NCBI GenBank assembly: GCA_900319235.1
Contig: ONNR01000001.1
Coordinates: 62,001-126,000, forward strand
Direction of reading: 5' to 3'
DNA: 64,000 nt
Source: an uncultured Prevotellaceae bacterium
GTDB taxonomy: Bacteria; Bacteroidota; Bacteroidia; Bacteroidales; UBA3663
Below the pieces are notes generated by a model. That model made no database searches. It saw only the letters and a program-made list of their open reading frames with translations, and was not told the origin of the DNA. How positions within the stretch are numbered: the first letter of the stretch is position 1; every line of letters begins with the position of its first letter. The translations under genes and the position numbers were made by a program. This document shows positions 2,555-57,160 of this stretch, one piece after another.

Positions 2555-2555
2555 G

Positions 2556-5036: not shown

Positions 5037-5037
5037 A

Positions 5038-5265
5038 ATGAAAGAAAAAATTCGTATATTGCTCGAAGACCAGCTTCCATTGGTGGACCTTGATAGCGAA
5101 ACACTCTATCAGGAACTTGATTCACTGGGAGTGACTACGATTCTGATGACTTTGTCCGATGAATTCGGCATCCTCTTGGACAGTCGAGATGCTACGCCAA
5201 AGAATCTGCGTAGCCTTGATTCCCTGGTGGCTTTGGTCGAACGCAAACTTGCCGAGAAGCAGTGA
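5038..5265 (+). CDS. Acyl carrier protein
   Basis: A 75-aa carrier protein with the phosphopantetheine attachment motif DSLG, serine at residue 29. Acidic helical character and length fit the family. The ATG at 5038 is preferred over an in-frame GTG at 5029 that would overlap the MMPL stop. It ends in a GTGA overlap with the acyl-AMP ligase. Because a dedicated ligase follows immediately, this is more likely a specialised carrier loaded by that ligase than the fatty-acid-synthase ACP. Confidence 0.9.
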   Translation: MKEKIRILLEDQLPLVDLDSETLYQELDSLGVTTILMTLSDEFGILLDSRDATPKNLRSLDSLVALVERKLAEKQ

Positions 5266-9829: not shown

Positions 9830-9830
9830 A

Positions 9831-28123: not shown

Positions 28124-28224
28124 GTCGTTTTTGAATAATGATTAAAGTTAGTATGTTAGGTTTATAATGCATGTTTATTTCAAAAAAAGCTCAAAAAACA
28201 GAGCAATAACATGTAAAATTCTTT

Positions 28225-28255
28225 GCAAATATACTAATTTTATTTTTTAATCAAA
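28225..28255 (-). promoter_or_regulatory. Promoter of uxaB-uxaA
   Basis: On the minus strand the -7 box TATATTTGC occupies 28233-28225, with TTTG at 28255-28252 about 18 nt upstream. The leader is about 95 nt. Confidence 0.7.
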
Positions 28256-28270
28256 AAAAAAACATAAAAT

Positions 28271-28304
28271 TTTTGCTTTAATTAAAAAAAAAACGTATCT
28301 TCGC
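28271..28304 (+). promoter_or_regulatory. Promoter of uxaC-kdgK-kdgA-exuT
   Basis: A near-consensus -7 box TATCTTCGC at 28296-28304 with TTTTG at 28271-28275, about 20 nt apart. It implies a leader of about 145 nt before uxaC, which contains ATTAGC/GCTAAT inverted words. No terminator-like structure is clear in the leader. Confidence 0.6.
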
Positions 28305-28455
28305 CCCATGAAATTAGCAAAAACACTACAAATTTTGCAGATTTCGCTAATGAAAACCTAAGCGTACGACTATAGTACACTAAGAATAGTTAATAGTAAA
28401 AAACTCCTCTAATCGGGTTTCATCTTATACAAACACAATAAACACTTTTTTTACA

Positions 28456-29871
28456 ATGAAAGCATTTTTGGACGAAAACTTCCTGCTGCAGACCGAAACT
28501 GCACAGAAGCTTTACCACGAGCATGCGGCTAAAATGCCGATCATCGATTATCACTGTCACCTCATTCCCCAGATGGTAGCCGAAAACAAGCGTTTCGAGT
28601 CTATCGCACAGATTTGGCTCATGGGCGATCACTACAAGTGGCGTGCCATGCGCAGCAACGGTGTGGACGAGCGTTTCTGCACCGGTAAAGACACCACCGA
28701 CTGGGAGAAGTTCGAGAAGTGGGCAGAGACCGTTCCTTACACTTTCCGTAACCCTCTCTATCATTGGACTCACTTGGAGCTCAAGACTGCTTTCGGCATC
28801 ACCGAGACCTTGAATCCAACCAATGCTCGCGCTATCTACGACAAGTGCAACAAGCTCATCGCTACCGACCCCAAGTTCACTCCTCGTGGACTGATGAAGC
28901 ATTATAATGTAAAGGTTGTCTGCACCACCGACGATCCCGCCGATTCGCTCGAATGGCACAAGATTGTTGCTGCCGATCCAACTGCCGAGACTCGTATGCT
29001 GCCGACATGGCGTCCCGATGCCGGTATGAACATCGAGGCTGCTACCTGGAAGGCTTACATCGAGAAGCTCGAGAAGGTGAGCGGTGTTGAGATCAAGAAG
29101 TTCGCCGACCTCGTTGATGCATTGCAGAAGCGCCACGACTTCTTTGCCGAGATGGGCTGCCGCCTGTCTGACCACGGCATCGAGGAGTTCTATGACGAGC
29201 CTTACACCGACGCTGAGATCGATGCTATCCTCGACAAGGCTTTGGCTGGCAAGTGCCTTACTGTCGAAGAGACACGCAAGTACAAGCACGCTTACCTCAA
29301 GGAGCAGGGCAAGATGGACTATGCTTCGGGTTGGGCACAGCAGTACCACTACGGCGCTATCCGCAACAACAACAGCAAGATGTTTGCCAAGTTGGGCGCT
29401 GACACTGGCTTCGACTCCATCGGCGAGTTCACAACCGCTAAGGCCATGAGCCACTTCCTTGACGAACTCAATGCAGAAGGCAAGCTCGCCAAGACTATCC
29501 TCTACAACCTCAATCCTTGCGCCAACGAAGTTATTGCCACCATGCTTGGCAACTTCCAGGATGGTTCCGTTCCCGGCAAGATCCAGTTCGGTTCGGGCTG
29601 GTGGTTCCTCGATCAGAAGGATGGTATGGAGAAGCAGATGAATGCCCTCTCGGTTCTCGGCCTGCTCAGCCGCTTCGTCGGCATGCTCACCGACTCTCGT
29701 TCGTTCCTGTCTTATCCTCGTCACGAGTACTTCCGTCGCACCCTTTGCAACCTCCTCGGCAACGACGTCGAGAACGGCCTCGTTCCATACGTTGGTTATG
29801 AGAAGGACCGCTTGAACCAGATGGTTGAGGACATTTGCTACAACAATGCCAACAACTATTTCAAATTCTAA
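28456..29871 (+). CDS. uxaC: Glucuronate/galacturonate isomerase
   Basis: Isomerises D-glucuronate to D-fructuronate and D-galacturonate to D-tagaturonate, the first step of hexuronate catabolism. At 471 aa it is the usual size. Residues 27-37 (MPIIDYHCHLI) hold the HxH metal-ligand motif (H33, H35) of the amidohydrolase-type TIM barrel. GSGWWFLDQKDGMEKQM near 380 and FVGMLTDSRSFLSYPRHEYFRR near 415-435 are UxaC signatures. First gene of a rightward operon with kdgK, KDPG aldolase and a hexuronate transporter. Confidence 0.97.
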   Translation: MKAFLDENFLLQTETAQKLYHEHAAKMPIIDYHCHLIPQMVAENKRFESIAQIWLMGDHYKWRAMRSNGVDERFCTGKDTTDWEKFEKWAETVPYTFRNPLYHWTHLELKTAFGITETLNPTNARAIYDKCNKLIATDPKFTPRGLMKHYNVKVVCTTDDPADSLEWHKIVAADPTAETRMLPTWRPDAGMNIEAATWKAYIEKLEKVSGVEIKKFADLVDALQKRHDFFAEMGCRLSDHGIEEFYDEPYTDAEIDAILDKALAGKCLTVEETRKYKHAYLKEQGKMDYASGWAQQYHYGAIRNNNSKMFAKLGADTGFDSIGEFTTAKAMSHFLDELNAEGKLAKTILYNLNPCANEVIATMLGNFQDGSVPGKIQFGSGWWFLDQKDGMEKQMNALSVLGLLSRFVGMLTDSRSFLSYPRHEYFRRTLCNLLGNDVENGLVPYVGYEKDRLNQMVEDICYNNANNYFKF

Positions 29872-29915
29872 TTTTTTATACACATTATTAATAACCAATA
29901 ATTCATTTTTAAACA

Positions 29916-30938
29916 ATGGGAAAGATCATCACCCTTGGCGAAATCATGCTTCGCCTTTCTCCTAACGGCCAGGACCGTTTCATTCAGACCGACGTATTCC
30001 GTATCATCCCCGGTGGTGGCGAGGCTAATGTAGCCGTAAGCTGCGCCAACTATGGACATGATGCATATCTCGTAACCAAGCTGCCAAAGCACGAAATCGG
30101 CCAGATCGCTGTGAACTCTCTTCGTCGCTATGGTGTCAACACCAAGTACATCGCTCGTGGCGGTGACCGTGTAGGTCTCTACTATTGCGAGACTGGTGCT
30201 TCGATGCGTCCTTCAAAGGTTATCTACGACCGCGCTCATTCTGCCATCGCTGAGGCTGATCCTTCAGACTTCAACTTCGACGAGATCATGGAAGGCGCTG
30301 ACTGGTTCCACTGGTCGGGCATCACTCCAGCCATCTCCGACAAGGCTGCCGAACTCACCAAGCTCGCTTGCGAGGCTGCCAAGCGTCATGGCGTTACCGT
30401 ATCGGTTGACCTCAACTTCCGCAAGAAACTGTGGACTTCCGAGAAGGCTATCTCTATCATGCGTCCATTGATGAAGTATGTCGATGTCTGCATCGGCAAC
30501 GAGGAGGACGCTGAGCTCTGCCTCGGCTTCAAGCCTGATGCTGACGTTGAAGGTGGCGAGACCAATGCTGCCGGCTACGAGGGCATCTTCAAGCAGATGA
30601 AGGAGGAGTTCGGATTCAAGTATGTTGTTTCGACCCTTCGTGAGTCGTTCAGCGCTACCTTCAATGGCTGGAAGGCCCTTATCTATGACGGCAAGGAGTT
30701 CTATCAGTCGAAGCGTTACGAGATCAACCCAATCATCGACCGTGTAGGTGGTGGCGACAGCTTCTCTGGTGGCCTTATCCATGGCCTTCTCACCAAGCCA
30801 ACCCAGGGCGAGGCTCTCGAGTTCGCAGTTGCAGCTTCTGCTCTCAAGCACACCATCAATGGTGACTACAACCTCGTAAGCGAGGCTGAGGTTGCATCTC
30901 TCGCAGGCGGTAACGCAAGCGGCCGTGTTCAGCGTTAA
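29916..30938 (+). CDS. kdgK: 2-keto-3-deoxygluconate kinase (PfkB family)
   Basis: Phosphorylates 2-keto-3-deoxygluconate to KDPG. It is 340 aa with the PfkB N-terminal sugar-binding segment PGGGEANVAVSCANYG (residues 32-47) and the C-terminal GGGDSFSGGLIHG (about 277-289), whose Asp is the catalytic base. Position between uxaC and the aldolase fixes the substrate as KDG better than sequence alone. It starts 44 nt after uxaC. A strong hairpin follows. Confidence 0.93.
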   Translation: MGKIITLGEIMLRLSPNGQDRFIQTDVFRIIPGGGEANVAVSCANYGHDAYLVTKLPKHEIGQIAVNSLRRYGVNTKYIARGGDRVGLYYCETGASMRPSKVIYDRAHSAIAEADPSDFNFDEIMEGADWFHWSGITPAISDKAAELTKLACEAAKRHGVTVSVDLNFRKKLWTSEKAISIMRPLMKYVDVCIGNEEDAELCLGFKPDADVEGGETNAAGYEGIFKQMKEEFGFKYVVSTLRESFSATFNGWKALIYDGKEFYQSKRYEINPIIDRVGGGDSFSGGLIHGLLTKPTQGEALEFAVAASALKHTINGDYNLVSEAEVASLAGGNASGRVQR

Positions 30939-30953
30939 TACATTAATTTATAT

Positions 30954-30993
30954 TACTGATTTACGATTGGCTCAGGCCTTTCGTAAATCAGTA
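30954..30993 (+). terminator. Intercistronic hairpin between kdgK and the aldolase gene
   Basis: A perfect 13-bp inverted repeat (30954-30966 with 30981-30993; arm TACTGATTTACGA) has a 14-nt loop and is followed by a weak T-run. No new promoter is visible before the aldolase gene, so it is probably an attenuator or RNA-stability element rather than a full stop. Confidence 0.65.
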
Positions 30994-31022
30994 GTTTAAT
31001 AACTTTTCCATTTATTTATATC

Positions 31023-31691
31023 ATGGCAAGATTTGATAAGTTTCAGGTGATGGCCAAGATCGGTGCCGCACCAATGGTTCCTGTATTCTACAACAAGGAT
31101 GTCGAGATTTGCAAGAATGTCGTAAAGGCTTGCTACGAAGGTGGTGTTCGTGCTTTCGAGTTCACCAATCGTGGCGACTTTGCACATGAGGTATTCGGCG
31201 AGCTCAACAAGTGGGCTGCCAAGGAATGCCCCGAATTGGCTCTTGGCGTTGGTTCTGTTGTTGACGCTCCTACAGCTGCCCTCTATATCCAGCTCGGCGC
31301 TTGCTTCGTTGTAGGTCCTCTCTTCAATCCTGATATTGCTCCTGTATGCAATCGTCGTAGCGTATGCTACTGCCCAGGTTGTGTAACTCCTTCCGAGATC
31401 GGCAAGGCTCAGGAACTCGGCTGCGAGTTCACCAAGATCTTCCCAGGTGATGTTGTAGGTCCAAACCTCGTGAAGGGTCTGCTCGCTCCAATGCCTTGGT
31501 CGAAGATCATGGTTACCGGTGGCGTTTCTCCTGATGCTGACAACCTGAAGAAGTGGTTCGACGCTGGCGTTTACTGCGTAGGCATGGGTTCGAAGCTCTT
31601 CCCGAAGGACAAGGTTGCTGCTGGCGACTGGGCATACGTTACCAACAAGTGCAAGGAGTGCTTTGATATCATTGCAGGATTCAAGAAATAA
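31023..31691 (+). CDS. kdgA: KDPG/KHG aldolase
   Basis: Splits 2-keto-3-deoxy-6-phosphogluconate into pyruvate and glyceraldehyde-3-phosphate, the last step of the pathway. The protein has 222 aa. The Schiff-base lysine is K138 in FTKIFPGD. E46 and R50 in FEFTNRG and the phosphate-site TGGVSPD near 164 are conserved. A cysteine-rich [13 protein letters not shown] stretch lies at 111-123, the usual PGC site. It sits between kdgK and the hexuronate transporter. Confidence 0.95.
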
Positions 31692-31720
31692 AGATTGACC
31701 CGATAACATAATTTTATTAT

Positions 31721-33178
31721 ATGGGAAATCCACAAGAAAAGAAAACTAATTGGCGCTGGTATCTCTGTGTCCTCTTGTTCGTGGCTACCACCGTGAATTA
31801 TCTGGACCGTCAGGTACTTTCGATGACCTGGAAGGAGTTCATCGCACCTGAGTTCCACTGGACCGATAGCGATTACGGCACAATCACTGGTATCTTCTCC
31901 ATCATCTATGCTGTTGCTTGTCTCTTTGCTGGTAAGTTCATCGACTGGATGGGCACCAAGAAGGGTTATCTTTGGGCAATCGGCGTATGGAGCCTTGGTG
32001 CATGTTTGCACGCTGGCTGCGGATGGGTTACCATGAAGTATACGGGCCTTGCCGACGTTGAGGCACTTCGCGCCGTACAGGCTGGCTCCGACCTGGCTGT
32101 TGCTATTGCTACCGTTTCGGTTTATCTCTTCCTCTTCTGCCGTACTGTCCTTGCTATGGGTGAGGCTGGCAACTTCCCGGCTGCCATCAAGGTTACTGCC
32201 GAGTACTTCCCCAAGAAGGACCGTGCTTTCGCAACCTCTATCTTCAATGCCGGTGCTTCGGTAGGTGCTCTTGCAGCTCCTCTTACCATCCCTGCATTGG
32301 CTAAGGCTTGGGGTTGGGAAATGGCATTCATCATCATCGGTGGTCTTGGCTTCATCTGGATGTTCTTCTGGGCATTCATGTATGACAAGCCTGAAAAGTC
32401 CAGCCATGTGAATGCTGCCGAGCTCGACTACATCCAGCAGGACGATGCTGCCGAAGCAGCTGCTGCAGCTGAGGCTGCTGCCACTACTGCCGAGGAGCCT
32501 TCGATTGGCTTGCTCGAGACCCTCAAGTTCAAGCAGACCTGGGCATTCATCTTCGGTAAGTTCCTGACCGATGGTGTTTGGTGGTTCTTCCTTTTCTGGG
32601 CACCCGCTTACTTCCAGGATCAGTTCGGTTACAAGGCTTCGTCGGGCATGGGTCAGGCACTCATCTTCACGTTGTACTTCATCGTTACGTTCCTCTCCAT
32701 CTATGGTGGCTATCTGCCAAAGCTCTTCGTCGAGAAGAAGGGTATGGAGCCTTATTCAGGACGTATGCGTGCAATGTTGATCTTTGCGTTCTTCCCCATC
32801 TTCGCCCTCTTTGCCCAGCCTCTTGGTGCTTACAGCGCTTGGTGGCCGGCAATCATCATCGGTTTGGCAGGCGCTGGTCACCAGGCTTGGTCGGCCAACC
32901 TTTATTCTACCGTTGGTGATATGTTTCCGAAGTCTTGTGTCGCTACCATTACAGGTATCGGCCAGATGATGGGAGGATTCGGATCATTCTGCATCAACAA
33001 GGGTTCTGGCGAACTCTTTGACTATGCAGCTGGTCAAGGCGCTGCTTTCACCTTCTTCGGTTTCGAAGGCAAGCCCGCTGCCTACATGATTGTATTCTGC
33101 ATCTGCGCAGTTGCATATCTCATCGCCTGGAACATCATGCATGCACTTGTTCCAAAGTACAAGAAGATTGAACTCTAA
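31721..33178 (+). CDS. MFS hexuronate transporter (ExuT-like)
   Basis: A 485-aa major facilitator of the anion:cation symporter family with 12 predicted helices. NYLDRQVLSMTWKEF near residues 27-41 and GIFSIIYAVACLFAGKFIDWMGTKKG are typical of ExuT-like transporters (GxxxD/RxGxR/K loop). The central cytoplasmic loop (about 230-256) is extended by an Ala/Glu-rich low-complexity stretch. Its place at the end of uxaC-kdgK-kdgA supports import of glucuronate or galacturonate. A perfect 12-bp terminator follows. Confidence 0.9.
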   Translation: MGNPQEKKTNWRWYLCVLLFVATTVNYLDRQVLSMTWKEFIAPEFHWTDSDYGTITGIFSIIYAVACLFAGKFIDWMGTKKGYLWAIGVWSLGACLHAGCGWVTMKYTGLADVEALRAVQAGSDLAVAIATVSVYLFLFCRTVLAMGEAGNFPAAIKVTAEYFPKKDRAFATSIFNAGASVGALAAPLTIPALAKAWGWEMAFIIIGGLGFIWMFFWAFMYDKPEKSSHVNAAELDYIQQDDAAEAAAAAEAAATTAEEPSIGLLETLKFKQTWAFIFGKFLTDGVWWFFLFWAPAYFQDQFGYKASSGMGQALIFTLYFIVTFLSIYGGYLPKLFVEKKGMEPYSGRMRAMLIFAFFPIFALFAQPLGAYSAWWPAIIIGLAGAGHQAWSANLYSTVGDMFPKSCVATITGIGQMMGGFGSFCINKGSGELFDYAAGQGAAFTFFGFEGKPAAYMIVFCICAVAYLIAWNIMHALVPKYKKIEL

Positions 33179-33564: not shown

Positions 33565-35433
33565 ATGAAAGCGAAATCTGTATTGTTGTCTATGGTTATG
33601 GCATTGTCAGGCTCTATTTGCTTAGCAGAGCCTGTGCATATCTATGCTTCTCCCAATGGATTATCACCACACGAGGCGCTTCGTGAAGCACGCGAAATGC
33701 GGCGTCTGCATAAGGTCGGTGCTTCTGACACGCTGTATATTCATCTTGCCGAGGGAACCTATTATCTTGGTGAGACGTTGTTCGTGCGACCCGAGGATAG
33801 TGGTACTCCTTCTTCTCCCACGGTTATTATTGGTGCCGAGAATGGGAAATCTGTACTGAGTGGAGGTGTGCCTCTTAAGATGCATCAAGATTTAAATACC
33901 TGCAAGATTTCCCCGATTTATGAATCTTATGCTCTAAACGGTCGAAATCCTATATCTATTCGACAACTATGGCAGGATGACCGCAAGTTGCCACACGCCT
34001 CGCTCGTTCCACTCGACAGTATGATCAATATCGTTGATTTTCGTAAAGAGGAACGTGAGGTTTGGATTCCTTTGTCAGCATTCCAGCCTTTCCTGCAAAG
34101 TGATGTCGATCAGGAAATAAGCAATCTTGAGATGATTTTGCACCAGCGTTGGGCCATTGCTATCCTTCGTGTAAAGAGTTACGTCATCGAAGGAGACATC
34201 GTCAAACTGAAATTCGAGGAACCCGAGTCCAGGCTTGAGTTCGAGCACCCTTGGCCCCAACCCGTCGTCAACGAGGATAGGGGAGATGGTGTACTCCGAA
34301 CTTCTTCGTTCAATCTGCTGGGCGGAAAAGGTTTCATAAAGCCCGGTACTTGGTATCAGGATAATTCCACGGGTATCCTTCACTATTATCCCAAGGAAGA
34401 TGATTGTTATAATGAAGATAAATGTTCTAAAAAAGAATATCTTGCTGAAGGCAAACAGGATTGTGCCAGCAAAACATTCACAGCCCCCGTGCTTCAAACT
34501 ATTGTAGAAGTCAATGGCTCCCTCGAGCGCCCTGTGCATGACATCATTTTCCGGCATGTAAGTTTCCAGCATGCAGCATGGAATCGTCCTTCCTTCAAAG
34601 GCCACGTCACCTTGCAGGGAGGGATGTATCTCCTCGATGCCTATAAACTGCAGATACCTGGATTGCCCGAAAAGGAATATCTTGAAAATCAGGCGTGGAT
34701 TGAACGCCCTGAAGCCGCGGTAAGTGTACGTGGCGGTCAGCGCATCAACTTCGAAGGCTGTGAGTTCACGCATCTCGGAGCAACTGGTCTCGACTACGTT
34801 TGGGCAGATTCAGCCTGCGTGGTGAAGAGTTGTCACTTCCACGACATTGGAGGTACAGCCTTGGCGCTTGGAGCTTTCCCCGATCGTGGCTTCGAGACAC
34901 ACGTTCCCTTCCGCCCCGTCAATATGCGTGAGCTTTGTTCCGACTTCCTCATTGCTGATAATCTGATTGAGGACGTCACCAACGAGGATTGGGGATGTGT
35001 CGGCATCGGAGCCGGCTATGTCGCCGACTGCATCATCGAACACAACATCGTCCGTGATGTCAACTATTCCGGCATTTGCGTGGGCTGGGGATGGACGCCG
35101 CTCGACTCCGGCATGAAGAACAATCACATCCGTGGCAACAAGGTCTATCGTTTCGCGAAGATGCTTTATGATGCCGGTGGCATCTACACGCTTTCCTATA
35201 TGCCGGGTTCGACCATCGAAGACAATATCATCGACGAGATCTATCCTCCGAAATATGCCACCAATCTTCGTGGATTCTATATCTATCTCGACGAAGCCAC
35301 CGATGGCGTGACGATTCGCAACAATTGGTGTCCCGAAGAACGATTCGGCGATAATCGCCCCGGGCCTGATGTACATTGGATAAATAACGGCCCCAAGGCC
35401 ACACCCAATACCGATTGGCTCAAAAGCAAGTAA
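33565..35433 (+). CDS. Secreted right-handed beta-helix protein, GH141-like
   Basis: A 622-aa protein with signal peptide 1-21 (cleaved after CLA). Its N-terminal pattern, a parallel beta-helix entry with PNG, then AEGTYYLGETLFVRPEDSGT and VLSGG (residues 31-96), plus YSGICVGWGWTPLDSG near 505 and DAGGIYTLSYMPGS near 535, resembles GH141 proteins. That family includes an alpha-L-fucosidase from rhamnogalacturonan-II degradation and a xylanase. Consecutive DNxI-type repeats in 440-600 mark the beta-helix rungs. It is first in a locus with a GH31 enzyme, a corrinoid methyltransferase fusion, a symporter and a regulator. A polysaccharide lyase or epimerase is the alternative. The GH141 call is by recall of pattern, not by search. 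Confidence 0.6.
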   Translation: MKAKSVLLSMVMALSGSICLAEPVHIYASPNGLSPHEALREAREMRRLHKVGASDTLYIHLAEGTYYLGETLFVRPEDSGTPSSPTVIIGAENGKSVLSGGVPLKMHQDLNTCKISPIYESYALNGRNPISIRQLWQDDRKLPHASLVPLDSMINIVDFRKEEREVWIPLSAFQPFLQSDVDQEISNLEMILHQRWAIAILRVKSYVIEGDIVKLKFEEPESRLEFEHPWPQPVVNEDRGDGVLRTSSFNLLGGKGFIKPGTWYQDNSTGILHYYPKEDDCYNEDKCSKKEYLAEGKQDCASKTFTAPVLQTIVEVNGSLERPVHDIIFRHVSFQHAAWNRPSFKGHVTLQGGMYLLDAYKLQIPGLPEKEYLENQAWIERPEAAVSVRGGQRINFEGCEFTHLGATGLDYVWADSACVVKSCHFHDIGGTALALGAFPDRGFETHVPFRPVNMRELCSDFLIADNLIEDVTNEDWGCVGIGAGYVADCIIEHNIVRDVNYSGICVGWGWTPLDSGMKNNHIRGNKVYRFAKMLYDAGGIYTLSYMPGSTIEDNIIDEIYPPKYATNLRGFYIYLDEATDGVTIRNNWCPEERFGDNRPGPDVHWINNGPKATPNTDWLKSK

Positions 35434-35510
35434 TTGCTCTTCCATTATAAATTGAAATTCCATTGTAATTAAAATTCCATTGCAAGTTATATATTCTTTT
35501 GTCTAAATAT

Positions 35511-37853
35511 ATGAAACAGACAAACTACTATCTATTCGATTTCCTCGACTTCGACCCTGCCTTGCAACAGGATGAGTACCTTTGGAAATCTTATTGTCCC
35601 CGAAATGTAGAAGCTCGTGACGGCGCTGTATATATCACCGTTCCCTATCAGCGACAAGTGCGTCAGAATGATATGCTTGCCGACCTTTCTGTTCCTCAGC
35701 GCGAATTCACGTTGATCATTAAGGCATATACCCACAATATCATACGAGTATTCACGTCGTTCGATGGCTCTGAACCCGTCAATCAGGACGATATGCTGTG
35801 CTGGCATAAGAAGATACGCCCCATCGAGCTCAGTGTGAACGAAGATGCGGGATTCTATTGGATGGTCGATGGCAATGGAGAGGTGCGCGCCACGCTCAAT
35901 TGTGCCGAACCCGTCATCGAATTCTGGAGCGACCTGCAGCCTGCTCCTCAGCCTACCCTCGACCTGAAGCTCTATCCTGAAGGTGCCAAGAGCGAGGATA
36001 TTGCCGAAGGGACTGCCAAGAGTGTCAATCTCTCGGCCTACGATCATTTCTCGCCTCCGCGTTATGATGCCCTTCCCTTGGCTTTTGTCGAGCGTTGTGG
36101 CAAGCCTGCTACCGCTACGATGAGTTTCGAATGTCTTCCCGACGAGTGTTTCGTCGGCACGGGCGAGCGTTTCGCCAAGATGGACCTTTCGGGACATACC
36201 TTCCAGCTCAAGAACCAGGATGGCCAGGGCGTCAACAATCGTCGTTGCTACAAGAATATCCCGTTCTATCTGTCCAGCCGCATGTATGGCGTCTTCTACC
36301 ACACGTCGTCCTATTGCAAACTGTCCTTCGCCGATCATTCGACACGAAGTGTGCAGTTCCTCAGCGAAGAGCCGGTCATCGACGCTTTCATCATCGGCGG
36401 CAATACGCCCGAACAGATCCTGCACGGATATCGCTGCCTGACGGGATTCCCTCCAATGCTTCCGCTTTGGAGTTTCGGCATTTGGATGAGCCGAATGACC
36501 TATTTCTCGGCCGATGAAGTCAATAGCATCTGCAATCGTCTGCGTGCCGAACATTATCCCTGCGACGTGATTCATCTGGATACCGGTTGGTTCAAGACCG
36601 ACTGGCTCTGCGAATGGAAGTTCAACGAGGAACGTTTCCCCGATCCATTGAAGTTCATTCACGACCTCAAGGACAAGGGCTATCGTGTGAGCCTTTGGCA
36701 ATTGCCCTACATTGCCGAGGATGCCGAACAGATCACCGAGGCCCGCGCCAATCACTACATCGCCGAACCTCAGAAGAAGGAGCTTCAACAGGCCGAGGAA
36801 GGGCGTTCGAATTTCTCGTCGCTCGATTATGCCGGCACCATCGACTTCACTTCGTCCGCGGCCACTGCTTGGTACAAGAGCCTTTTGAAGCGCTTGCTCG
36901 AAATGGGTGTGACCTGCATCAAGACCGATTTTGGCGAGAACATCCACATGGATGCAAAATACTTTGGCATGCCCGCCGAGAAGTTGAACAACCTCTACGC
37001 ACTGCTTTATCAGAAGGCTGCTTTCGAGATCACGAAGGAGGTTTGCGGCAATCCATCGCATTATGCCAAGGCATTCGATACCACTGAAAATGCCGGCATC
37101 GTTTGGGCACGTAGTGCCTGGGCGGGTTGTCAGCGTTATCCCTTGCATTGGGGTGGCGATTCGGCACATTCCTGGGATGGCTTGGCCGGCAGTCTCAAGG
37201 GAGGCCTGCACTTCGGCCTTTCGGGATTCTCGTTCTGGAGCCACGATGTGCCAGGTTTCCACAGTTTGCCCAACTTTATGAACTCTCCTCTGCACGACGA
37301 TATCTACGTGCGCTGGACGCAGTTTGGCGTCTTCTCGAGCCACATCCGCTATCACGGCAGCCACCAGCGTGAGCCCTGGTGCTATCCGGCCATTGCGCCC
37401 ATTGTGAAGCGTTGGTGGAAGTTGCGCTATCACCTCTTGCCCTATATCTACGACGAGGCAAGGAAATCGACCGTGAGCGGCAATCCGATGGTGCGTGCCC
37501 TGCTCATCCAGCATCCCGACGATCCGACCGTTTGGCATATCGACGATGAGTATTACTTCGGCTCGAAGTTCCTGTGCTGTCCTGTGATGAACAGCCGCAA
37601 TCGTCGCAACATTTATCTGCCGGCAGGTGAGTGGGTGAATTTCTTCACCGGAACGCGCTACGACATGGCTGAGGGCGGTTGGCTCCTCGATCAGGAAGTG
37701 CCGCTCGACGAGATGCCTGTCTTCGTTCGTCCCGGCACCGAGATACCCATCTATTTCGACGAAGTGGATTGCACCGACCAGATGGATCTCGACAAGGCCG
37801 AAATGCTTGTCGTCGATGACGACTTTAATCCGAAAAACTGGAACCTATTATGA
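35511..37853 (+). CDS. GH31 family alpha-glycosidase, probable alpha-xylosidase
   Basis: A 780-aa enzyme with no signal peptide, so cytoplasmic or periplasmic action is uncertain. The ATG at 35511 is preferred over an upstream TTG at 35499. An N-terminal beta-sandwich precedes the TIM barrel. The nucleophile motif is IKTDFGE (residues 471-477) and the acid/base segment is GGDSAHSWDGLAGSL (about 544-558), both close to the YicI-type alpha-xylosidase subgroup, which has KTDFGE. The barrel also has WMSRMTYFSADEVN and PCDVIHLDTGWF. It overlaps the next gene by 4 nt, indicating translational coupling with the methyltransferase fusion. Alpha-glucosidase activity cannot be excluded. Confidence 0.9.
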   Translation: MKQTNYYLFDFLDFDPALQQDEYLWKSYCPRNVEARDGAVYITVPYQRQVRQNDMLADLSVPQREFTLIIKAYTHNIIRVFTSFDGSEPVNQDDMLCWHKKIRPIELSVNEDAGFYWMVDGNGEVRATLNCAEPVIEFWSDLQPAPQPTLDLKLYPEGAKSEDIAEGTAKSVNLSAYDHFSPPRYDALPLAFVERCGKPATATMSFECLPDECFVGTGERFAKMDLSGHTFQLKNQDGQGVNNRRCYKNIPFYLSSRMYGVFYHTSSYCKLSFADHSTRSVQFLSEEPVIDAFIIGGNTPEQILHGYRCLTGFPPMLPLWSFGIWMSRMTYFSADEVNSICNRLRAEHYPCDVIHLDTGWFKTDWLCEWKFNEERFPDPLKFIHDLKDKGYRVSLWQLPYIAEDAEQITEARANHYIAEPQKKELQQAEEGRSNFSSLDYAGTIDFTSSAATAWYKSLLKRLLEMGVTCIKTDFGENIHMDAKYFGMPAEKLNNLYALLYQKAAFEITKEVCGNPSHYAKAFDTTENAGIVWARSAWAGCQRYPLHWGGDSAHSWDGLAGSLKGGLHFGLSGFSFWSHDVPGFHSLPNFMNSPLHDDIYVRWTQFGVFSSHIRYHGSHQREPWCYPAIAPIVKRWWKLRYHLLPYIYDEARKSTVSGNPMVRALLIQHPDDPTVWHIDDEYYFGSKFLCCPVMNSRNRRNIYLPAGEWVNFFTGTRYDMAEGGWLLDQEVPLDEMPVFVRPGTEIPIYFDEVDCTDQMDLDKAEMLVVDDDFNPKNWNLL

Positions 37854-40800
37854 CTTGGAAATCCAATTTGGCTGAGACCAAGAGACATTACGTCAATTGG
37901 TGGAATCATCGGGGCATTGTGCTCAATATGTGGGAACACTTCCAGCAGGGAGTGGCTCCGCACGGACCGTATGCAGGCGAAAAGCCTATCGTGTTGACGC
38001 AGGAGGCCGCCAACAATTACGGTACGGGTAGTTTCAATCTGCCCGGAGCGCCGCAGACAAAGGATCTGAATCAGCGATGGTTCGATCCCCAATGGCGTGC
38101 CGAATTCCTCGATTGGTACGTCGGTCATTCCTGCCTCATGGCCGATATGCTCCCTGTTGCCAACACGCAGTTGGGACCGGGTTCGATGGCCGCTATCCTG
38201 GGCAGTGTGTTCGAAGGGGGAGAGGATACGATTTGGATTCATCCCGACCTGCATTATTCCGACGATTTCCGCTTTGATCCCAACCATCCCAATTTCAAGT
38301 TGCATAAGGATCTGCTCAAGGCTTGTGTCGAACGGTCAAAGGGCAATTACTACGTCGGTATGCCCGACCTGATGGAAGGCCTTGACGTGCTGGCTGCGAT
38401 GAAAGGCACCGACAAGGTGCTGATGGATACCCTGACGCAACCCGATCTGCTGGAGGAGCAGATGCAGCGCATCAACGATGCCTATTTCGAGGTGTTCGAC
38501 GCGCTCTACGACATCATTCGTTTCGACGGTCGCGATTGCGGTGGTCCCCTCGATCCCGATTATCGGGGCGCCAATTTCGGAACTGATGGCGAGATGGCAT
38601 TCTGCTATTTCTCGTTGTGGGCGCCGGGCAAGCTCACCAAGCTGCAGAGCGACATCTCGACGATGCTTTCGGTCGAGGATTATCGTCGTTTCGTGCAGCC
38701 GTTCATTCGCCAGCAGGCACAGAGGATTCCCTATACGCTCTATCATCTCGATGGCGTTGGCGCGATGCGTCATCTTCCTTCACTCCTTGATGTTGAGGAA
38801 CTTAAGGCCATCCAATGGACACCTGGCGTCGGCCAACCGCAGGGTGGTGACCCCAAGTGGTACGACCTCTATAAGCAGATTCTTGCGGGCGGCAAGTCCA
38901 TTATGGCTTGTTGGGTTACGGTCGATGAACTTCGTCCTTTGCTCGACAATATCGGTGGCGATGGTGTGCATCTCGAAATGGATTTCCACAACGAGGCCGA
39001 GGTTGAGCAGGCACTTCGCATCATCGAGGAGTATCAGACGTCGGAGGTCGAAAAGAAGGTGGACGAATGTATTCGTTTGGGCGATATGTCCGAAGAAAAG
39101 GCTTCGAAAACCGGTAAGCGCAAAGTCGTCGAAGGCGAATCGCTCACCATCGAGGCTCCTTCTTTCTCCGAAGCCATTGGCGATTCCGAACGTATCTTCC
39201 TGCTCGATGGTGGTATGGGAACTATGATTCAGCAGTACGATCTTGTTGAGGCGGATTTCGGTGGTCATCCCGGTTGCAACGATTACCTTTGTCTGAGCAA
39301 GCCCGAGGTGATTCAGGACATCCATCGCAGGTATCTGATGGCAGGGTCGGACATCATCGAGACAAATACCTTCAGCGCCCAGCGTATCTCCCTGAAGGAT
39401 TGGGAACTTGAGCAGGAAGTAAGGAATGTGAACCTTGCGGCAGCTCGTATCGCCCGTCAGATGGCCGATGCCTTCACGCTGACCAATCCTTCGAAACCTC
39501 GCTTCGTCCTGGGTTCGGTAGGTCCTACCAACAAGACCTGCAGTTTCAGCAGCGGTGATGAGCCCGCGCTCGACTACAATGCGCTGAAAGCCGCCTATCA
39601 GGAACAGATTGAAGCCCTTGCCGAGGGCGGTGTCGATGGCATCTTGATCGAGACCATCTTCGACACCTTGAATGCGCAAGCTGCTGTCGAGGCTGCCCAG
39701 GCCGTGAAACTCCCCGTGATGCTCAGTTTCGCACAGGTCAACGACCAGGGCGTGAATATGAACGGGCAGGATGTGTTCGCTTTCATCGACGACATTTGCC
39801 GAAAGTACGACATCTTCTCCGTGGGCTTGAACTGCTCGTCGGGTGCTGCCCAGATGGCTCCGATTATCGAGGACCTTGCGGCGCGTGTCCAGTGTCGCGT
39901 GAGCGCCTATCCCAACGCCGGTATCCCGAATGCGAAGGGCAGGTACGAGCAAAGCGGGGAGGAGTTTGCCCGTCAATGCTGGAGTATGATTGATAGCCAC
40001 AGCGTCGATATCATCGGCGGATGTTGCGGCACTACCGACCAGCATATCTCCGCCCTCCGTCCTCTGCTCGAACCTGCCCCCGGATGCTTCGTCAGCCCCA
40101 AGGGCGAAACTGCTGCCCGCCCTCGCTACAAGCAGCTCTATCGGGCGCCGATAGGTGGGAATAATCGGAGTACTCAGAAAACTCCGAGTACTCCGAATAC
40201 TCCGAGTACTCCGACCACTCCGAGCTCTCCGACAAACACCCCCTCTCAGCCCCTTGATCCCAAGGAGCGCCTCCTGCAAGCCATCGTCGCTGGAAAGCAG
40301 GACGAGGCCCTCGAAGCCACCAAGGCGGCCCTGGACGAAGGTGCCGATGCCACCAGCCTGATCAACAATCAGATGATTTGCGCGATGGGAATGGTGGGCA
40401 AGAACTTCGAGGAGGGAAAGGCTTTCGTGCCTCAGTTGCTGATGGCAGGTCGCGCCATGAAGGCGGCGTTGGGCTACATCAAGCAGCACGAGGCCGCCCA
40501 AGGCAAATCGGCATCCATACAGTCGATCGGAAAGATTGTCATCGGAACGGTGAAGGGCGACCTCCACGACATCGGCAAGAACCTCGTCGCCTCGATGCTC
40601 GAAGGTTCCGGCTTTGAGGTTGTGAACATCGGCATCGATATCGACGCTGATACTTTTGTCAAGGCGGTTGTCGATAATCACGCCGATATCCTTTGCCTCT
40701 CGGCGCTTCTCACCACCACGATGACCTATATGAAGGATGTGCTCGATGCACTCCAGAAGGCCGGCATTCGCGACAAGGTGAAGGTGATGGTGGGCGGTGC

Positions 40801-40903
40801 GCCCGTCAGTCAGCAGTTTGCCGATGAGATTGGGGCCGATGGTTATTCGTCGAATGCCAACGAAGCCGTGACTGTTGCAAAGAAATTGTTGAACATTAAC
40901 TAA
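37850..40903 (+). CDS. Three-part corrinoid methyltransferase fusion (URO-D/MtaA-like, homocysteine S-methyltransferase, B12-binding)
   Basis: A 1017-aa cytoplasmic protein. Residues 1-370 resemble the URO-D/MtaA methyltransferase superfamily; the usual HxC zinc motif appears as HLD in YHLDGVGAMRHL near 304. Residues about 444-745 are a homocysteine S-methyltransferase barrel (FLLDGGMGTMIQ) with zinc ligands C662, C725 and C726 (GLNCSSG, GGCCGTT). A Thr-Pro-Ser repeat linker (about 773-797) leads to a helical corrinoid cap and a Rossmann B12 domain with DLHDIG (D904, H906, G909), where H906 would be the cobalt ligand. The folate-binding and AdoMet-reactivation domains of MetH are absent. The design suggests methyl transfer from an unknown donor through cobalamin to homocysteine. 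It overlaps the GH31 gene by 4 nt and precedes a symporter, so a methylated glycan product is the inferred donor. Confidence 0.88.
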   Translation: MTWKSNLAETKRHYVNWWNHRGIVLNMWEHFQQGVAPHGPYAGEKPIVLTQEAANNYGTGSFNLPGAPQTKDLNQRWFDPQWRAEFLDWYVGHSCLMADMLPVANTQLGPGSMAAILGSVFEGGEDTIWIHPDLHYSDDFRFDPNHPNFKLHKDLLKACVERSKGNYYVGMPDLMEGLDVLAAMKGTDKVLMDTLTQPDLLEEQMQRINDAYFEVFDALYDIIRFDGRDCGGPLDPDYRGANFGTDGEMAFCYFSLWAPGKLTKLQSDISTMLSVEDYRRFVQPFIRQQAQRIPYTLYHLDGVGAMRHLPSLLDVEELKAIQWTPGVGQPQGGDPKWYDLYKQILAGGKSIMACWVTVDELRPLLDNIGGDGVHLEMDFHNEAEVEQALRIIEEYQTSEVEKKVDECIRLGDMSEEKASKTGKRKVVEGESLTIEAPSFSEAIGDSERIFLLDGGMGTMIQQYDLVEADFGGHPGCNDYLCLSKPEVIQDIHRRYLMAGSDIIETNTFSAQRISLKDWELEQEVRNVNLAAARIARQMADAFTLTNPSKPRFVLGSVGPTNKTCSFSSGDEPALDYNALKAAYQEQIEALAEGGVDGILIETIFDTLNAQAAVEAAQAVKLPVMLSFAQVNDQGVNMNGQDVFAFIDDICRKYDIFSVGLNCSSGAAQMAPIIEDLAARVQCRVSAYPNAGIPNAKGRYEQSGEEFARQCWSMIDSHSVDIIGGCCGTTDQHISALRPLLEPAPGCFVSPKGETAARPRYKQLYRAPIGGNNRSTQKTPSTPNTPSTPTTPSSPTNTPSQPLDPKERLLQAIVAGKQDEALEATKAALDEGADATSLINNQMICAMGMVGKNFEEGKAFVPQLLMAGRAMKAALGYIKQHEAAQGKSASIQSIGKIVIGTVKGDLHDIGKNLVASMLEGSGFEVVNIGIDIDADTFVKAVVDNHADILCLSALLTTTMTYMKDVLDALQKAGIRDKVKVMVGGAPVSQQFADEIGADGYSSNANEAVTVAKKLLNIN
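40166..40239 (+). repeat. In-frame 9-nt tandem repeat coding for a Thr-Pro-Ser linker
   Basis: About seven copies of a unit close to ACTCCGAGT lie in the methyltransferase gene and encode repeated (S/N/T)TP triplets between the homocysteine and B12 modules. Copy number is likely variable because the unit is a multiple of three. Confidence 0.85.
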
Positions 40904-40921: not shown

Positions 40922-42541
40922 ATGAGCGATCAACTTCACTTCCTCGATTGGACTATTCTGGTAGTCTATTTCGTACTTCTCATCGTCATCGGACTATGGG
41001 CATCGCGCAAGCAGCAGAAGGCCGAAGGCAAGGACGGCAATTCGTTCCTTGCCAGCAAGTCACTTTCGTGGCACACCATTGGCCTTTCGATGTGGGGCAC
41101 AAACGTCGGCCCTTCGATGCTGATTGCTTCCTGTTCGTCGGGATTTGCGGCAGGCGTCGTATCGGGCAATTATGCGTGGTATGCGTTCATCTTCATTGCC
41201 TTGCTTGCCTTTGTGTTCGCGCCGCGTTATCTGGGCGAAAACATCTCCACCTTGCCTGAGTTTATGGGGCGTCGTTTCGGCCAGGGCACGCGCTCGGTGC
41301 TTGCCTGGTACACCATCGTGACCATCCTCATCTCGTGGCTGGCGCTGACCTTGTTTGCGGGCGGTGTGCTCATTCGTCAGATCTTCAATATCCCGATGTT
41401 CGCTTCAGCGCTCATCCTCTTGGCCATCAGCGCCTTCTTCACGATTCTCGGAGGATTGCGTGCGGTGGCTTATACCAATGTCTATCAGATGACCTTGCTC
41501 ATCATCGTGAGCACCATCCTCACGATTGCCGGCATCTGGAAGCTGGGTAGCGGTTCGTTCTTCGAAGGCATTGGCGTGCTGATGGACCCCGAAGTGGTGC
41601 CAAGTGGCTATTGGAACCTTTTCCAGCCGCTTTCCGACCCCGATTATCCCTGGCTTCCCATCCTGTTGGGTTATCCCGTGATGGGCATCTGGTTCTGGTG
41701 TACCGACCAGTCGATGGTGCAGCCTGTGCTTGCCGCAAAGAACCTGCACGAAGGACAGAAGGGCGCCAACTTCTGCGGATGGCTCAAGATTCTCGACGTG
41801 GCCATCTACATCATCCCCGGCATCATCTGCTATGCGCTTTGCAAGACGGGCATCTTCACGACCACTCCCAATGCCGACGATTCCTACCTTTTCATGGTGA
41901 CCAATATCTTCCCCATCGGTATGGTGGGCCTTGTAATGGCTGTGCTTACAGCGGCCCTGGTTTCGACCATCGGCTCATCGCTCAATGCCCTTTCAACGGT
42001 GTTCACGATGGACATCTACGTGAAGAACATCAACCCCAGCGCCACGAGCAAGGACATTCGCCGAATGGGTCGGATGGTCACCATCATCGGTTCGCTCATC
42101 AGCATCCTGATTTGCGTGGCCGTGGATCTCATCAAGGACATCCCGCTCTTCAACATCTTCCAGTCCGTCCTCAGTTTCATCGCTCCTCCGATGGCGGCCG
42201 TCTTTGTGATGGGCGTCTTCTGGAAGCGTTGTTCGGCATCGGCGGCACAGATGACGCTGACCTTTGGCACGGCGCTCTGTCTGCTGGTCGGCATCTTGTA
42301 CTATGTGATGCCCGAAGGCCTGGCATTTGGCATCAGGTGGCCGCATTTCATGCTCCTTTCGTTCTATCTCTTCGTGATTTTGATTATCAGTATGGTGGTT
42401 GTGAGCCTGATAGACAAGAATTCTCGCGAGGATGTTGTGCTTCAAAAGGTTAACCAACCAATGAAACCTTCCGTTCTGGTCGCCTGGTGCCTGCTGTTTG
42501 TCGTGATGATCTCGCTCTACGTCATCTTCAATGGCCACTGA
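40922..42541 (+). CDS. Sodium:solute symporter (SSS family, SGLT-like)
   Basis: A 539-aa inner-membrane transporter with about 13-14 helices. The first helices (LDWTILVVYFVLLIVIGLWA, 8-27) and GTNVGPSMLIASCSSG near 59 match the SSS fold's unwound TM1 region. GYPVMGIWFWCTDQSMVQPVLAAKN near 245-270 is the family's sugar-transporter signature (WCTDQ). It follows the methyltransferase fusion by 18 nt and probably imports the compound that the preceding enzymes release or modify. The exact substrate is open; WCTDQ favours a sugar or sugar-derived compound over an amino acid. Confidence 0.9.
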   Translation: MSDQLHFLDWTILVVYFVLLIVIGLWASRKQQKAEGKDGNSFLASKSLSWHTIGLSMWGTNVGPSMLIASCSSGFAAGVVSGNYAWYAFIFIALLAFVFAPRYLGENISTLPEFMGRRFGQGTRSVLAWYTIVTILISWLALTLFAGGVLIRQIFNIPMFASALILLAISAFFTILGGLRAVAYTNVYQMTLLIIVSTILTIAGIWKLGSGSFFEGIGVLMDPEVVPSGYWNLFQPLSDPDYPWLPILLGYPVMGIWFWCTDQSMVQPVLAAKNLHEGQKGANFCGWLKILDVAIYIIPGIICYALCKTGIFTTTPNADDSYLFMVTNIFPIGMVGLVMAVLTAALVSTIGSSLNALSTVFTMDIYVKNINPSATSKDIRRMGRMVTIIGSLISILICVAVDLIKDIPLFNIFQSVLSFIAPPMAAVFVMGVFWKRCSASAAQMTLTFGTALCLLVGILYYVMPEGLAFGIRWPHFMLLSFYLFVILIISMVVVSLIDKNSREDVVLQKVNQPMKPSVLVAWCLLFVVMISLYVIFNGH

Positions 42542-42605: not shown

Positions 42606-44348
42606 ATGACGCTCAGGTCCTTAGCCTTCTTTCTTATTCCCATTCTCCTGCTTGGAGCGTGCCATTCGTCGCACCCTTCCGTTCCTGAGGACGACGATGA
42701 CCAGCTTTACGACGAACCCTATGCGATGGCCAATTTCCTAAAGGAACCGCGTCAGGCGATGTTGCTCATCGACTCTGCCTTCGAGGCCCAGAATATCACC
42801 GACGAACGTCGCCAGTACCTGAAGGCCATCGTGATGTACAATGGCTTCTCGCATCCCGACAGCAGCCTGCTGATGTGCCGCCATCTGGTCGAAAGCGACG
42901 AGTGGGAGGAGGTGACCGATACGGTGTTGATAGTCGATGTCTATAGCTTGATGTCCACCGTGGCAGGAACCCTGAACCGTCATGTCGATGTGATCCATTA
43001 TGCCCAGTTGGCTTACGACCTGGTGCACGGCAATCCGGTATTCAGTGTCGAGGAAAATGATTTTTTGAGTCGAGTGGGTCGAACGCAGGCCTTCCTTGGT
43101 CAAAAGGAAGAGGGTTTGGAAAATATCAAGCAGGCCTTTGATAATGTGAAAAGTACGAAGTCCTGGCCCGCGCTGATGACTACGTTGAATATCGGACGTA
43201 AGTTGGCAAATACCCAACGTGAGATGAATCAGTACAATGAAGCGCTTCAAACGATTCGTTTTCTGATCAACAGACTGGAGTATTTCTATGCGCATACCGA
43301 GGAATTCGCCGACCTTCAGGCAAGTATGCGGCAGAACCGTAGGGCCGTCGATGATTATGTCAACTATATGCGTGTGCGTTGTTATGGTGGTATGGTCAGA
43401 ACCTTTGCCGGCATTGGTGCCCGCGATTCAGCCCTCTATTGGATGAATCTGATGGACAAATTCAAGGAATCGGACGATCCGCAGATTGTCCTCAATCTGA
43501 TACCTTCGATGGTGAAGCTGCACTTCGACGACCGTGTGATGGAGGATTTCGGCGATGTGATTCAGGCCATCGGTTCCGACACCCTGGACTTGGAGTATGT
43601 CCGTCTGCTGGAGGCGATGTCCGATTTTGAACGCAACCGCAACAACTGGCGAGCTTCGAACGATTACCTGCGTCGTGCATCCGACGTCCGCGACAGCATT
43701 GAGCAGGAGAGTTATCGCAGCCAGCTGACCGACCAGCTGACCATCTATCAGTTGCACGACGAACGTACGAACCGCATCGAGGCCGAAGGAAGGAATCGCC
43801 GCCTGTTCTTCGTTTCCGCCTCACTGAGCCTGTTGCTTTTGCTGTTGGCGATGATAGGTGTGGCATTGCGTATCTTCCGCAGCCTCAAGGTTTTGAGGCG
43901 CGTTCACGATGATACAAGAATCGAGTTGGATGAGGCAAAGCAGAAGATCGAGAAACTTTCGAAAGGCTATGTTCCCGAGACGCCCGAGCAGCTTTATGAG
44001 CGCATTATGGAGGTAATGGAGACCAAGCGTCCTTACACCGATCAGGACTTCGACATCCCTCAGCTGGCGTCGATGGTTCGTTCCAATCGAACCTATGTCT
44101 CGAAGGTCATCAACCGTCAGTCGGGTATGAATTTCCGTACGTGGTTGGCAAAATATCGCATCAACCTTGTGCAACAGTACCTAAAAGAAAACCCCGAAGC
44201 AAGCCTGGACGAGCTTTGCGTCATCGCTGGCTATGCTTCGAAGTCATCGTTGTTCCGTCATTTCAAGTCCATCACCGGCTACACTCCCGTCAACTGGCTG
44301 ATTAGTCAGGAGGAGGAGGAATCAGAAGGGGATTCTAAGGAATCTTAG
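42606..44348 (+). CDS. TPR/AraC hybrid transcription regulator, membrane-bound
   Basis: A 580-aa regulator of a type specific to Bacteroidetes. The N-terminus has a hydrophobic signal with a lipobox-like LLGAC (Cys at 19) and an acidic EDDDD stretch. Residues about 40-395 are helical TPR-like repeats placed in the periplasm. A transmembrane helix runs 398-422 (FFVSASLSLLLLLLAMIGVAL). A short coiled coil precedes the cytoplasmic AraC DNA-binding domain (about 485-570), with both helix-turn-helix motifs visible: IPQLASMVRSNRTYVSKVIN and LDELCVIAGYASKSSLFRHFK. It closes the glycan locus and probably controls it in response to a periplasmic ligand. A 38-nt dispersed repeat lies just before the start. 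Confidence 0.88.
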   Translation: MTLRSLAFFLIPILLLGACHSSHPSVPEDDDDQLYDEPYAMANFLKEPRQAMLLIDSAFEAQNITDERRQYLKAIVMYNGFSHPDSSLLMCRHLVESDEWEEVTDTVLIVDVYSLMSTVAGTLNRHVDVIHYAQLAYDLVHGNPVFSVEENDFLSRVGRTQAFLGQKEEGLENIKQAFDNVKSTKSWPALMTTLNIGRKLANTQREMNQYNEALQTIRFLINRLEYFYAHTEEFADLQASMRQNRRAVDDYVNYMRVRCYGGMVRTFAGIGARDSALYWMNLMDKFKESDDPQIVLNLIPSMVKLHFDDRVMEDFGDVIQAIGSDTLDLEYVRLLEAMSDFERNRNNWRASNDYLRRASDVRDSIEQESYRSQLTDQLTIYQLHDERTNRIEAEGRNRRLFFVSASLSLLLLLLAMIGVALRIFRSLKVLRRVHDDTRIELDEAKQKIEKLSKGYVPETPEQLYERIMEVMETKRPYTDQDFDIPQLASMVRSNRTYVSKVINRQSGMNFRTWLAKYRINLVQQYLKENPEASLDELCVIAGYASKSSLFRHFKSITGYTPVNWLISQEEEESEGDSKES

Positions 44349-57150: not shown

Positions 57151-57160
57151 AGATTTTTTT

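Follow-up and report, generated by a model that had tools for sequence, protein, structure and literature searches.

A protein from a rumen/gut Bacteroidales genome joins a putative methyl-ether-cleaving module, a vitamin B12 carrier module and a methionine-making module in one chain, and its gene sits with the enzymes expected to dismantle a methylated disaccharide of the plant pectin rhamnogalacturonan-II (RG-II) that Bacteroides thetaiotaomicron, the best-studied gut degrader, leaves uneaten. We consider it slightly more likely than not that this protein is a self-contained corrinoid O-demethylase which moves the methyl group of an RG-II sugar, most likely 2-O-methyl-D-xylose, to cob(I)amide and then to homocysteine, giving methionine. 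Substrate and catalysis are inferred from sequence, predicted structure and gene context. The gene was found in a 64,000-nucleotide stretch of DNA (the window) from an uncultured Prevotellaceae bacterium (GCA_900319235.1, contig ONNR01000001.1, positions 62,001 to 126,000). The features of the locus are collected in Table 1.

Table 1. Features of the fusion-gene locus, in window coordinates, with predicted roles and supporting evidence.
Feature	Position	Strand	Predicted role	Evidence
GH141	33565..35433	+	Secreted (signal peptide by eye); predicted to release 2-O-methyl-xylose-fucose from RG-II chain A	Pfam GH141_M 8.3e-38; only PDB relative 5mqp (BT_1002), 9.4e-130; catalytic Asp pair of BT1002 (D523/D564) aligned and conserved as D536 and D576; N terminus MKAKSVLLSMVMALSGSICLAEP
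GH31	35499..37853	+	Cytoplasmic (no signal peptide by eye); predicted 2-O-methyl-alpha-xylosidase; a better start may be the ATG four codons downstream	Pfam Glyco_hydro_31_2nd (PF01055) 5.9e-83; nearest NCBIfam alpha-xylosidase, below its cut-off; nearest PDB 5f7c; directly upstream of N in 38 of 78 loci
Fusion protein	37850..40903	+	Putative corrinoid O-demethylase/methionine synthase, 1017 aa	ATG start, overlapping the GH31 stop by 4 bp
N module (residues 1-400)	37850..39049	+	URO-D-superfamily fold (predicted); putative sugar-ether:corrinoid methyltransferase	Invariant H299-x-D301, mostly D378
S module (residues 451-737)	39200..40060	+	MetH-type homocysteine S-methyltransferase barrel	Pfam S-methyl_trans (PF02574) 1.8e-84; C662, C725, C726
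Linker (residues 754-800)	40109..40249	+	Flexible, T/P-rich	pLDDT under 50; sequence
B module (residues 806-1007)	40265..40870	+	Corrinoid-binding module	Pfam B12-binding_2 (806-878) and B12-binding (894-1007); nearest NCBIfam MtgC/MtbC, below cut-offs; D904-x-H906-x-x-G909
Sodium:solute symporter (SSS)	40922..42541	+	Predicted importer of the (di)saccharide; 18 bp behind the fusion gene	Pfam SSF 1.4e-54; present in 44 of 81 neighbourhoods
AraC-type (HTH_18) protein	42606..44348	+	Possible regulator	Conserved only in the closest relatives; its cluster occurs in 3 loci

First, we confirmed the domain content of the fusion protein. The original prediction had described a homocysteine barrel and a cobalamin module fused to an N-terminal MtaA/URO-D-like domain, with the folate and reactivation domains missing. 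Profile searches found the homocysteine barrel and the cobalamin module, but no folate-binding or Met_synt_B12 domain. The three Cys of the S module and the D-x-H-x-x-G motif of the B module are invariant in 43 aligned full-length proteins. The fusion is not an assembly artefact, as it recurs in more than 50 other rumen/gut Bacteroidales genomes, while others carry fusions of N with the B12 module or separate genes. The original prediction needs one correction with respect to architecture: the URO-D-like domain is at the N terminus and not at the position of the folate domain, which here is occupied by the disordered linker.

The N-terminal 400 residues have no significant Pfam, NCBIfam or PDB sequence match (Pfam URO-D: E 0.18, 11.2 bits against a cut-off of 23.9), so that N is a distant branch of the superfamily at best. 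A search of the PDB with the N profile found nothing, profile-profile comparison with the MtaA-like partner gave no significant match, and a search of a viral structure library gave nothing. In contrast, the AlphaFold2 model of this module (pLDDT 87.6) matches the Methanosarcina mazei methyltransferase 4ay8 best by Foldseek (6e-9) and URO-D next, with VIA Z about 20 for URO-D and 4ay7. Hence, the designation "URO-D-like" is right at the fold level. N is strongly conserved (63% mean column identity) with many invariant polar residues. The module is not MtaA-like in its putative metal site, whose location is inferred from strand order only: H-x-D is found in 56 of 56 sequences instead of H-x-C, a difference that the literature links to oxygen rather than sulfur substrates (PMC10418091). 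C354 is unlikely to be a zinc ligand, since this position is C, S or N across relatives.

The reading of the protein as methyl-donor enzyme, corrinoid carrier and homocysteine acceptor in one chain, as originally proposed, is supported by fold, by conserved residues, and by relatives in which N, corrinoid protein and acceptor are encoded by separate neighbouring genes. A search for a RamA/MtrH-like reactivase had also been suggested, but reactivation by a RamA/RACo-type protein is less likely than by a separate MetH-type activation protein. Such a protein is present elsewhere in the genome, as is an MtaA-like protein, and activation-domain proteins occur at 29 loci, whereas no RACo-type reactivase was found in the 86.5%-complete genome.

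The sugar context, which the original prediction did not include, is the more important part. Among 38 loci with full flanks, GH31 is present in 26, GH141 in 19 and the SSS symporter in 26. In the split-gene form, GH31 and SSS are present in 13 of 13 loci. The reverse test gave a consistent picture: among 393 Bacteroidales genomes, 7 of the 8 with this GH31 and intact flanks have the N gene beside it. BT1002, the only solved relative of the GH141, releases 2-O-methyl-xylose-alpha-1,3-fucose from RG-II (PMC10154630), and B. thetaiotaomicron cannot cleave this disaccharide and accumulates it (PMC7939467). Split loci also carry apiosidase-like GH140 and rhamnosidases, and the genome containing the window has GH140 beside GH95, more GH141, GH106 and fucose isomerase. 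A search with a Dysgonomonas N among 395 genomes spread over the phylum found only the genome of the window, against 14 of 99 near relatives.

Based on these observations we infer the following order of events. The secreted GH141 would release 2-O-methyl-xylose-alpha-1,3-fucose from RG-II side chain A, the SSS symporter would import it, and the cytoplasmic GH31 would split it into fucose and 2-O-methyl-xylose. The N module would then bind the sugar ether and probably polarise the ether oxygen at H299/D301, with or without zinc, while cob(I)amide on the B module takes the methyl group. The B module would swing on its linker to the S module, where zinc-bound homocysteine takes the methyl group, giving methionine and cob(I)amide. 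Accidental cob(II)amide would be rescued by the separate activation protein. It is about as likely as not that this locus both cuts the one RG-II linkage that B. thetaiotaomicron leaves intact and doubles as a methionine synthase, with a single protein, an oxygen-independent sugar-ether demethylase, turning 2-O-methyl-xylose and homocysteine into xylose and methionine. If so, this family would give anaerobic gut and rumen bacteria a route to remove a methyl ether from O-methyl sugars, which cap plant and algal glycans, explain how the last RG-II linkage can be broken and its sugar used, and save the methyl group as methionine. It would also place URO-D-fold methyltransferases, best known from acetogens and methanogens, inside the polysaccharide-degrading machinery of Bacteroidales. 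We found no description of this architecture, nor of an anaerobic route for demethylation of sugars, in the open-licence literature searched.

Several findings speak against this assignment. N has no sequence match to a characterised methyltransferase. No xylose isomerase was found in this incomplete genome, so that demethylated xylose may have no standard outlet here. The specificity residues of the GH31 differ from those of the xylosidase YicI: the YicI D-C-F-W residues align with D-T-G-W, invariant in 49 of 49 sequences, which are neither the YicI residues nor an alpha-glucosidase Asp. The nearest solved GH31, 5f7c, is annotated as alpha-glucosidase and probably originates from B. thetaiotaomicron, which does not cleave the disaccharide. 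Furthermore, 12 of 38 full-flank loci lack GH31 and GH141 nearby, and GH141 as a family also contains a xylanase and endo-fucanases (PMC5593877, PMC12786026).

Of the alternatives, the one that survives best, although unlikely, is that the same enzyme logic operates on another RG-II or plant methyl sugar, such as 2-O-methyl-L-fucose from RG-II chain B, or on 2-O-methyl-xylose while still joined to fucose. Fucose isomerase is present in the genome, unlike xylose isomerase, which was not found, and spent medium of B. thetaiotaomicron also shows 2-O-methyl-fucose (PMC7939467). On the other hand, the constant neighbour is an alpha-xylosidase-like GH31 and not a GH139 methyl-fucosidase, and GH141 of the BT1002 type releases the methyl-xylose disaccharide. 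Somewhat more doubtful is the possibility that the donor is a small non-sugar compound (methanol from pectin methyl esters, a methoxylated aromatic, a methylated amine or thioether) and that the sugar genes are only co-regulated. Known URO-D-type demethylases do act on methoxy-aromatics, haloalkanes and methyl-sulfur (PMC13222342, PMC10418091), and the corrinoid module is nearest to MtgC/MtbC. However, the linkage to one specific GH31 type holds in both directions and across split and fused forms, and N lacks the His-Cys-Cys site of sulfur-type enzymes. It is very unlikely that N is merely a binding or regulatory domain of an unusual methionine synthase that takes its methyl group from elsewhere: a fold alone shows no function and N matches no characterised methyltransferase by sequence, but N is strongly conserved, also occurs as a separate gene beside corrinoid, activation and acceptor genes, and is found in N-B fusions without the homocysteine module. 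Equally improbable is 4-O-methyl-glucuronate from xylan as the donor, since the genes for UxaC, KDG kinase, KDPG aldolase and a hexuronate-type transporter that lie just upstream in the window accompany the N gene in only 2 of 81 neighbourhoods, the window and its nearest relative, whereas GH31, GH141 and SSS recur.

Cobalamin-dependent methionine synthase (MetH) has a homocysteine barrel with three Cys ligands and a corrinoid module with the D-x-H-x-x-G motif, and the predicted product is also methionine. In contrast to MetH, the fusion protein lacks the folate and activation domains, contains the extra N-terminal module with a predicted URO-D fold, has a corrinoid module nearer to MtgC/MtbC, and scores below the curated metH cut-off (484 against 1011 bits). 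The same genome encodes an ordinary full-length MetH. The URO-D-superfamily O-demethylase systems (OdmB, VdmB, MtvB, MtoB) have in common with the fusion protein the fold of the donor-side enzyme, a corrinoid carrier, a second methyltransferase to an acceptor, and possibly a carboxylate at the metal site, whose position in N is only inferred. However, those systems use methoxy-aromatics and separate proteins, and the second methyltransferase of the acetogen systems uses tetrahydrofolate, whereas here the context is sugar catabolism, the predicted acceptor is homocysteine, and the modules are in one chain. The chloromethane methyltransferase CmuA combines a donor-side URO-D-type domain and a corrinoid domain on one protein (PMC13222342), like the N-B fusions, but has no homocysteine module and acts on a halide substrate, and N has no match to the MtaA/CmuA model TIGR01463. 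The core methionine synthases MesA-MesD form methionine independently of folate, as predicted for the fusion protein, MesA-MesC probably from methyl-corrinoid proteins (PMC7857596), but they lack a fused donor module and corrinoid domain, and MesA is MetE-related whereas the acceptor barrel here is MetH-type. Aerobic demethylation of 6-O-methyl-galactose from porphyran by cytochrome P450 removes a methyl ether from a polysaccharide-derived sugar (PMC10033563), but needs oxygen and gives formaldehyde, whereas the route predicted here is oxygen-independent and keeps the methyl group. Finally, the RG-II degradation system of B. thetaiotaomicron shares GH141 of the BT1002 type with this locus, and GH140, GH95 and GH106 with other parts of the genome, while the locus described here adds the GH31, the symporter and the putative demethylase.

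First, we confirmed that the open reading frame of the fusion protein encodes 1017 amino acids. Pfam identifies S-methyl_trans (1.8e-84), B12-binding_2 and B12-binding domains in this protein, and no folate or activation domain (see table for positions). NCBIfam places the corrinoid module nearest to MtgC/MtbC and scores the whole protein far below the metH cut-off (484 against 1011 bits). The residues C662, C725 and C726 of the homocysteine barrel and the corrinoid motif D904-x-H906-x-x-G909 are exactly where the original prediction had put them, and are invariant in 43 aligned full-length proteins. A model of the whole protein (pLDDT 79.6) shows three folded blocks joined by two low-confidence stretches.

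Locations of the fusion gene, its domains, neighboring genes and other features
Feature	Location	Strand	Description
GH141	33565-35433
GH31	35499-37853
Fusion gene	37850-40903	+	1017 aa
S-methyl_trans domain	residues 451-737
B12-binding_2 domain	residues 806-878
B12-binding domain	residues 894-1007
Low-confidence stretches in the model	residues 414-431 and 754-800
SSS symporter	40922-42541
Uronate genes	26645-33178		mannitol-dehydrogenase-type oxidoreductase, glucuronate isomerase, KDG kinase, KDPG aldolase, hexuronate-type transporter
Giant ORF	13806-24413	+	3535 aa; Laminin_G_3
Piwi-domain protein	57161-59275	-	704 aa
ORF overlapping the end of the Piwi-domain gene	55954-57225	-	423 aa
MtaA/CmuA-family protein paired with activation protein	L108 (locus on contig C37 of the same genome): 9150-10815
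Cluster c11 fusion	L088 (another locus): 1173-5780	+	1536 aa; GH78 rhamnosidase, BNR-repeat domain and xylose-isomerase-like barrel

We then turned to the N-terminal module (N). Sequence searches with residues 1-433 found nothing significant, and neither did a search of the PDB with a profile of 56 relatives. However, a model of residues 1-400 built on that alignment is confident (pLDDT 87.6, pTM 0.89). Foldseek ranks the M. mazei methyltransferase 4ay8/4ay7 first (6e-9, 6e-8), followed by URO-D and then MetE. Structural comparison by VIA gives Z about 20 over about 300 residues for URO-D and 4ay7, against about 10 for unrelated barrels. The nearest solved folds are thus those of the URO-D superfamily, which includes O-, S- and halogen-demethylases (PMC10418091, PMC13222342). 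N contains an invariant H299-x-D301 at the end of a barrel strand, where the MtaA-like partner protein has H-x-C. At the likely third position, D378 is present in 53 of 56 sequences. S-methyltransferases of this superfamily are reported to use His-Cys-Cys, while O-methyltransferases have carboxylates or non-ligands in place of one or both cysteines (PMC10418091). We infer that D301 and D378 may form a metal site. Some members of the superfamily work without zinc (PMC13222342).

A scan of genome contigs returned 80 loci, all from Bacteroidota and mostly from rumen and gut MAGs. Most of these encode fusions of N with the homocysteine (S) and corrinoid (B) modules, and seven encode N-B fusions without the homocysteine module. 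A Dysgonomonas/Paludibacter/Bacteroides sp. 214 set has N alone, usually with a separate corrinoid gene nearby. In the tree, the fused proteins form one supported group (98/96). In the split-gene loci, an MtaA-like protein (cluster c5, with H-x-C...C) and a separate homocysteine methyltransferase (cluster c39) exclude each other, 8 loci against 3. This pattern is expected if the two are alternative acceptor-side enzymes, a suggestion that remains tentative since many fused loci also contain c5.

In the window, the GH141 gene is followed after 65 bp by the GH31 gene, which overlaps the fusion gene by 4 bp, and the SSS symporter gene follows after a further 18 bp. As judged by eye, GH141 has a signal peptide, whereas GH31 and the fusion protein do not. 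Of 38 loci with at least 6 kb on both sides, 26 contain this GH31, 26 the SSS and 19 a GH141. The gene directly upstream on the same strand is GH31 in 38 of 78 loci, and all 13 annotated split loci have GH31 and SSS. In the reverse direction, 10 of 393 Bacteroidales genomes contain this GH31. Seven of these have N adjacent, two are cut by the contig end, and one (genome G612) has a GH31-SSS pair with a GH2 but no N gene nearby. This last locus (L125) represents a natural control for what GH31 and the symporter do without the putative demethylase. In contrast, the uronate genes beside the window copy (including UxaC, KdgK and MFS) recur in only one other locus, and lie next to the fusion gene only in the closest relatives.

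As to the possible substrate, the only PDB relative of the GH141 is BT1002 (9e-130), with both catalytic aspartates aligned and conserved. BT1002 releases 2-O-methyl-D-xylose-alpha-1,3-L-fucose from side chain A of RG-II (PMC10154630). B. thetaiotaomicron cleaves every RG-II linkage except the one inside this disaccharide, which it accumulates (PMC7939467, PMC12282258). A GH31 and a corrinoid methyltransferase beside such a GH141 are what would be needed to finish the job, namely to cut the alpha-xyloside and to remove the 2-O-methyl group, which would block an isomerase acting at C2. Split loci also carry apiosidase-like GH140, GH78-type rhamnosidases, GH2 and a mutarotase-like protein. In several of them (L087, L091, L098 and L127), a GFO/IDH/MocA oxidoreductase (cluster c38) sits between or beside N and the symporter and might oxidize the sugar before or after demethylation. 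At L088, the cluster c11 fusion lies next to GH140 and GH31. The genome under study itself encodes GH140 beside GH95, two further GH141-domain proteins, several GH106 and fucose isomerase. Two points weaken the xylose reading. The specificity residues of the GH31 are neither those of YicI nor those of alpha-glucosidases (T358/G359, 49 of 49), and no xylose isomerase was found in this 86.5%-complete genome.

These observations confirm the domain content of the original prediction, and its interpretation that one protein combines the methyl-donor, corrinoid and acceptor modules of a methyltransferase system stands. The new element is the conserved sugar context, which makes a specific prediction: oxygen-independent demethylation of an RG-II sugar coupled to methionine formation in one chain. 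Parts of this plan are known from URO-D-type demethylases, the donor-corrinoid fusion CmuA and MetH, but we found no description of the combination or of the sugar role in the open-licence literature searched. We consider methyl transfer by the donor, corrinoid and homocysteine modules to be very likely and an RG-II methyl sugar to be a likely donor, while 2-O-methyl-xylose in particular is only somewhat more likely than not.

Contig C37 of the same genome encodes a 233-aa protein with part of the MetH activation domain beside an MtaA/CmuA-family protein of the His-Cys-Cys type. This pair lies next to the bifunctional fucokinase/GDP-fucose pyrophosphorylase gene. Homologues of the two recur near the N gene in 29 and 27 loci, and the activation protein family keeps an N-R-x-S-P-G-Y motif that appears to resemble the SAM-binding motif of MetH. 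No RACo-type activator was found in this genome. Since an ordinary full-length MetH is encoded on contig C26, the fusion protein is an additional enzyme.

Elsewhere in the window, Laminin_G_3 is the only Pfam match of a giant ORF, which may encode a secreted or surface protein. A protein with a Piwi domain (1.1e-12), i.e. a prokaryotic Argonaute-like protein, is encoded together with a second ORF that overlaps its end on the same strand.
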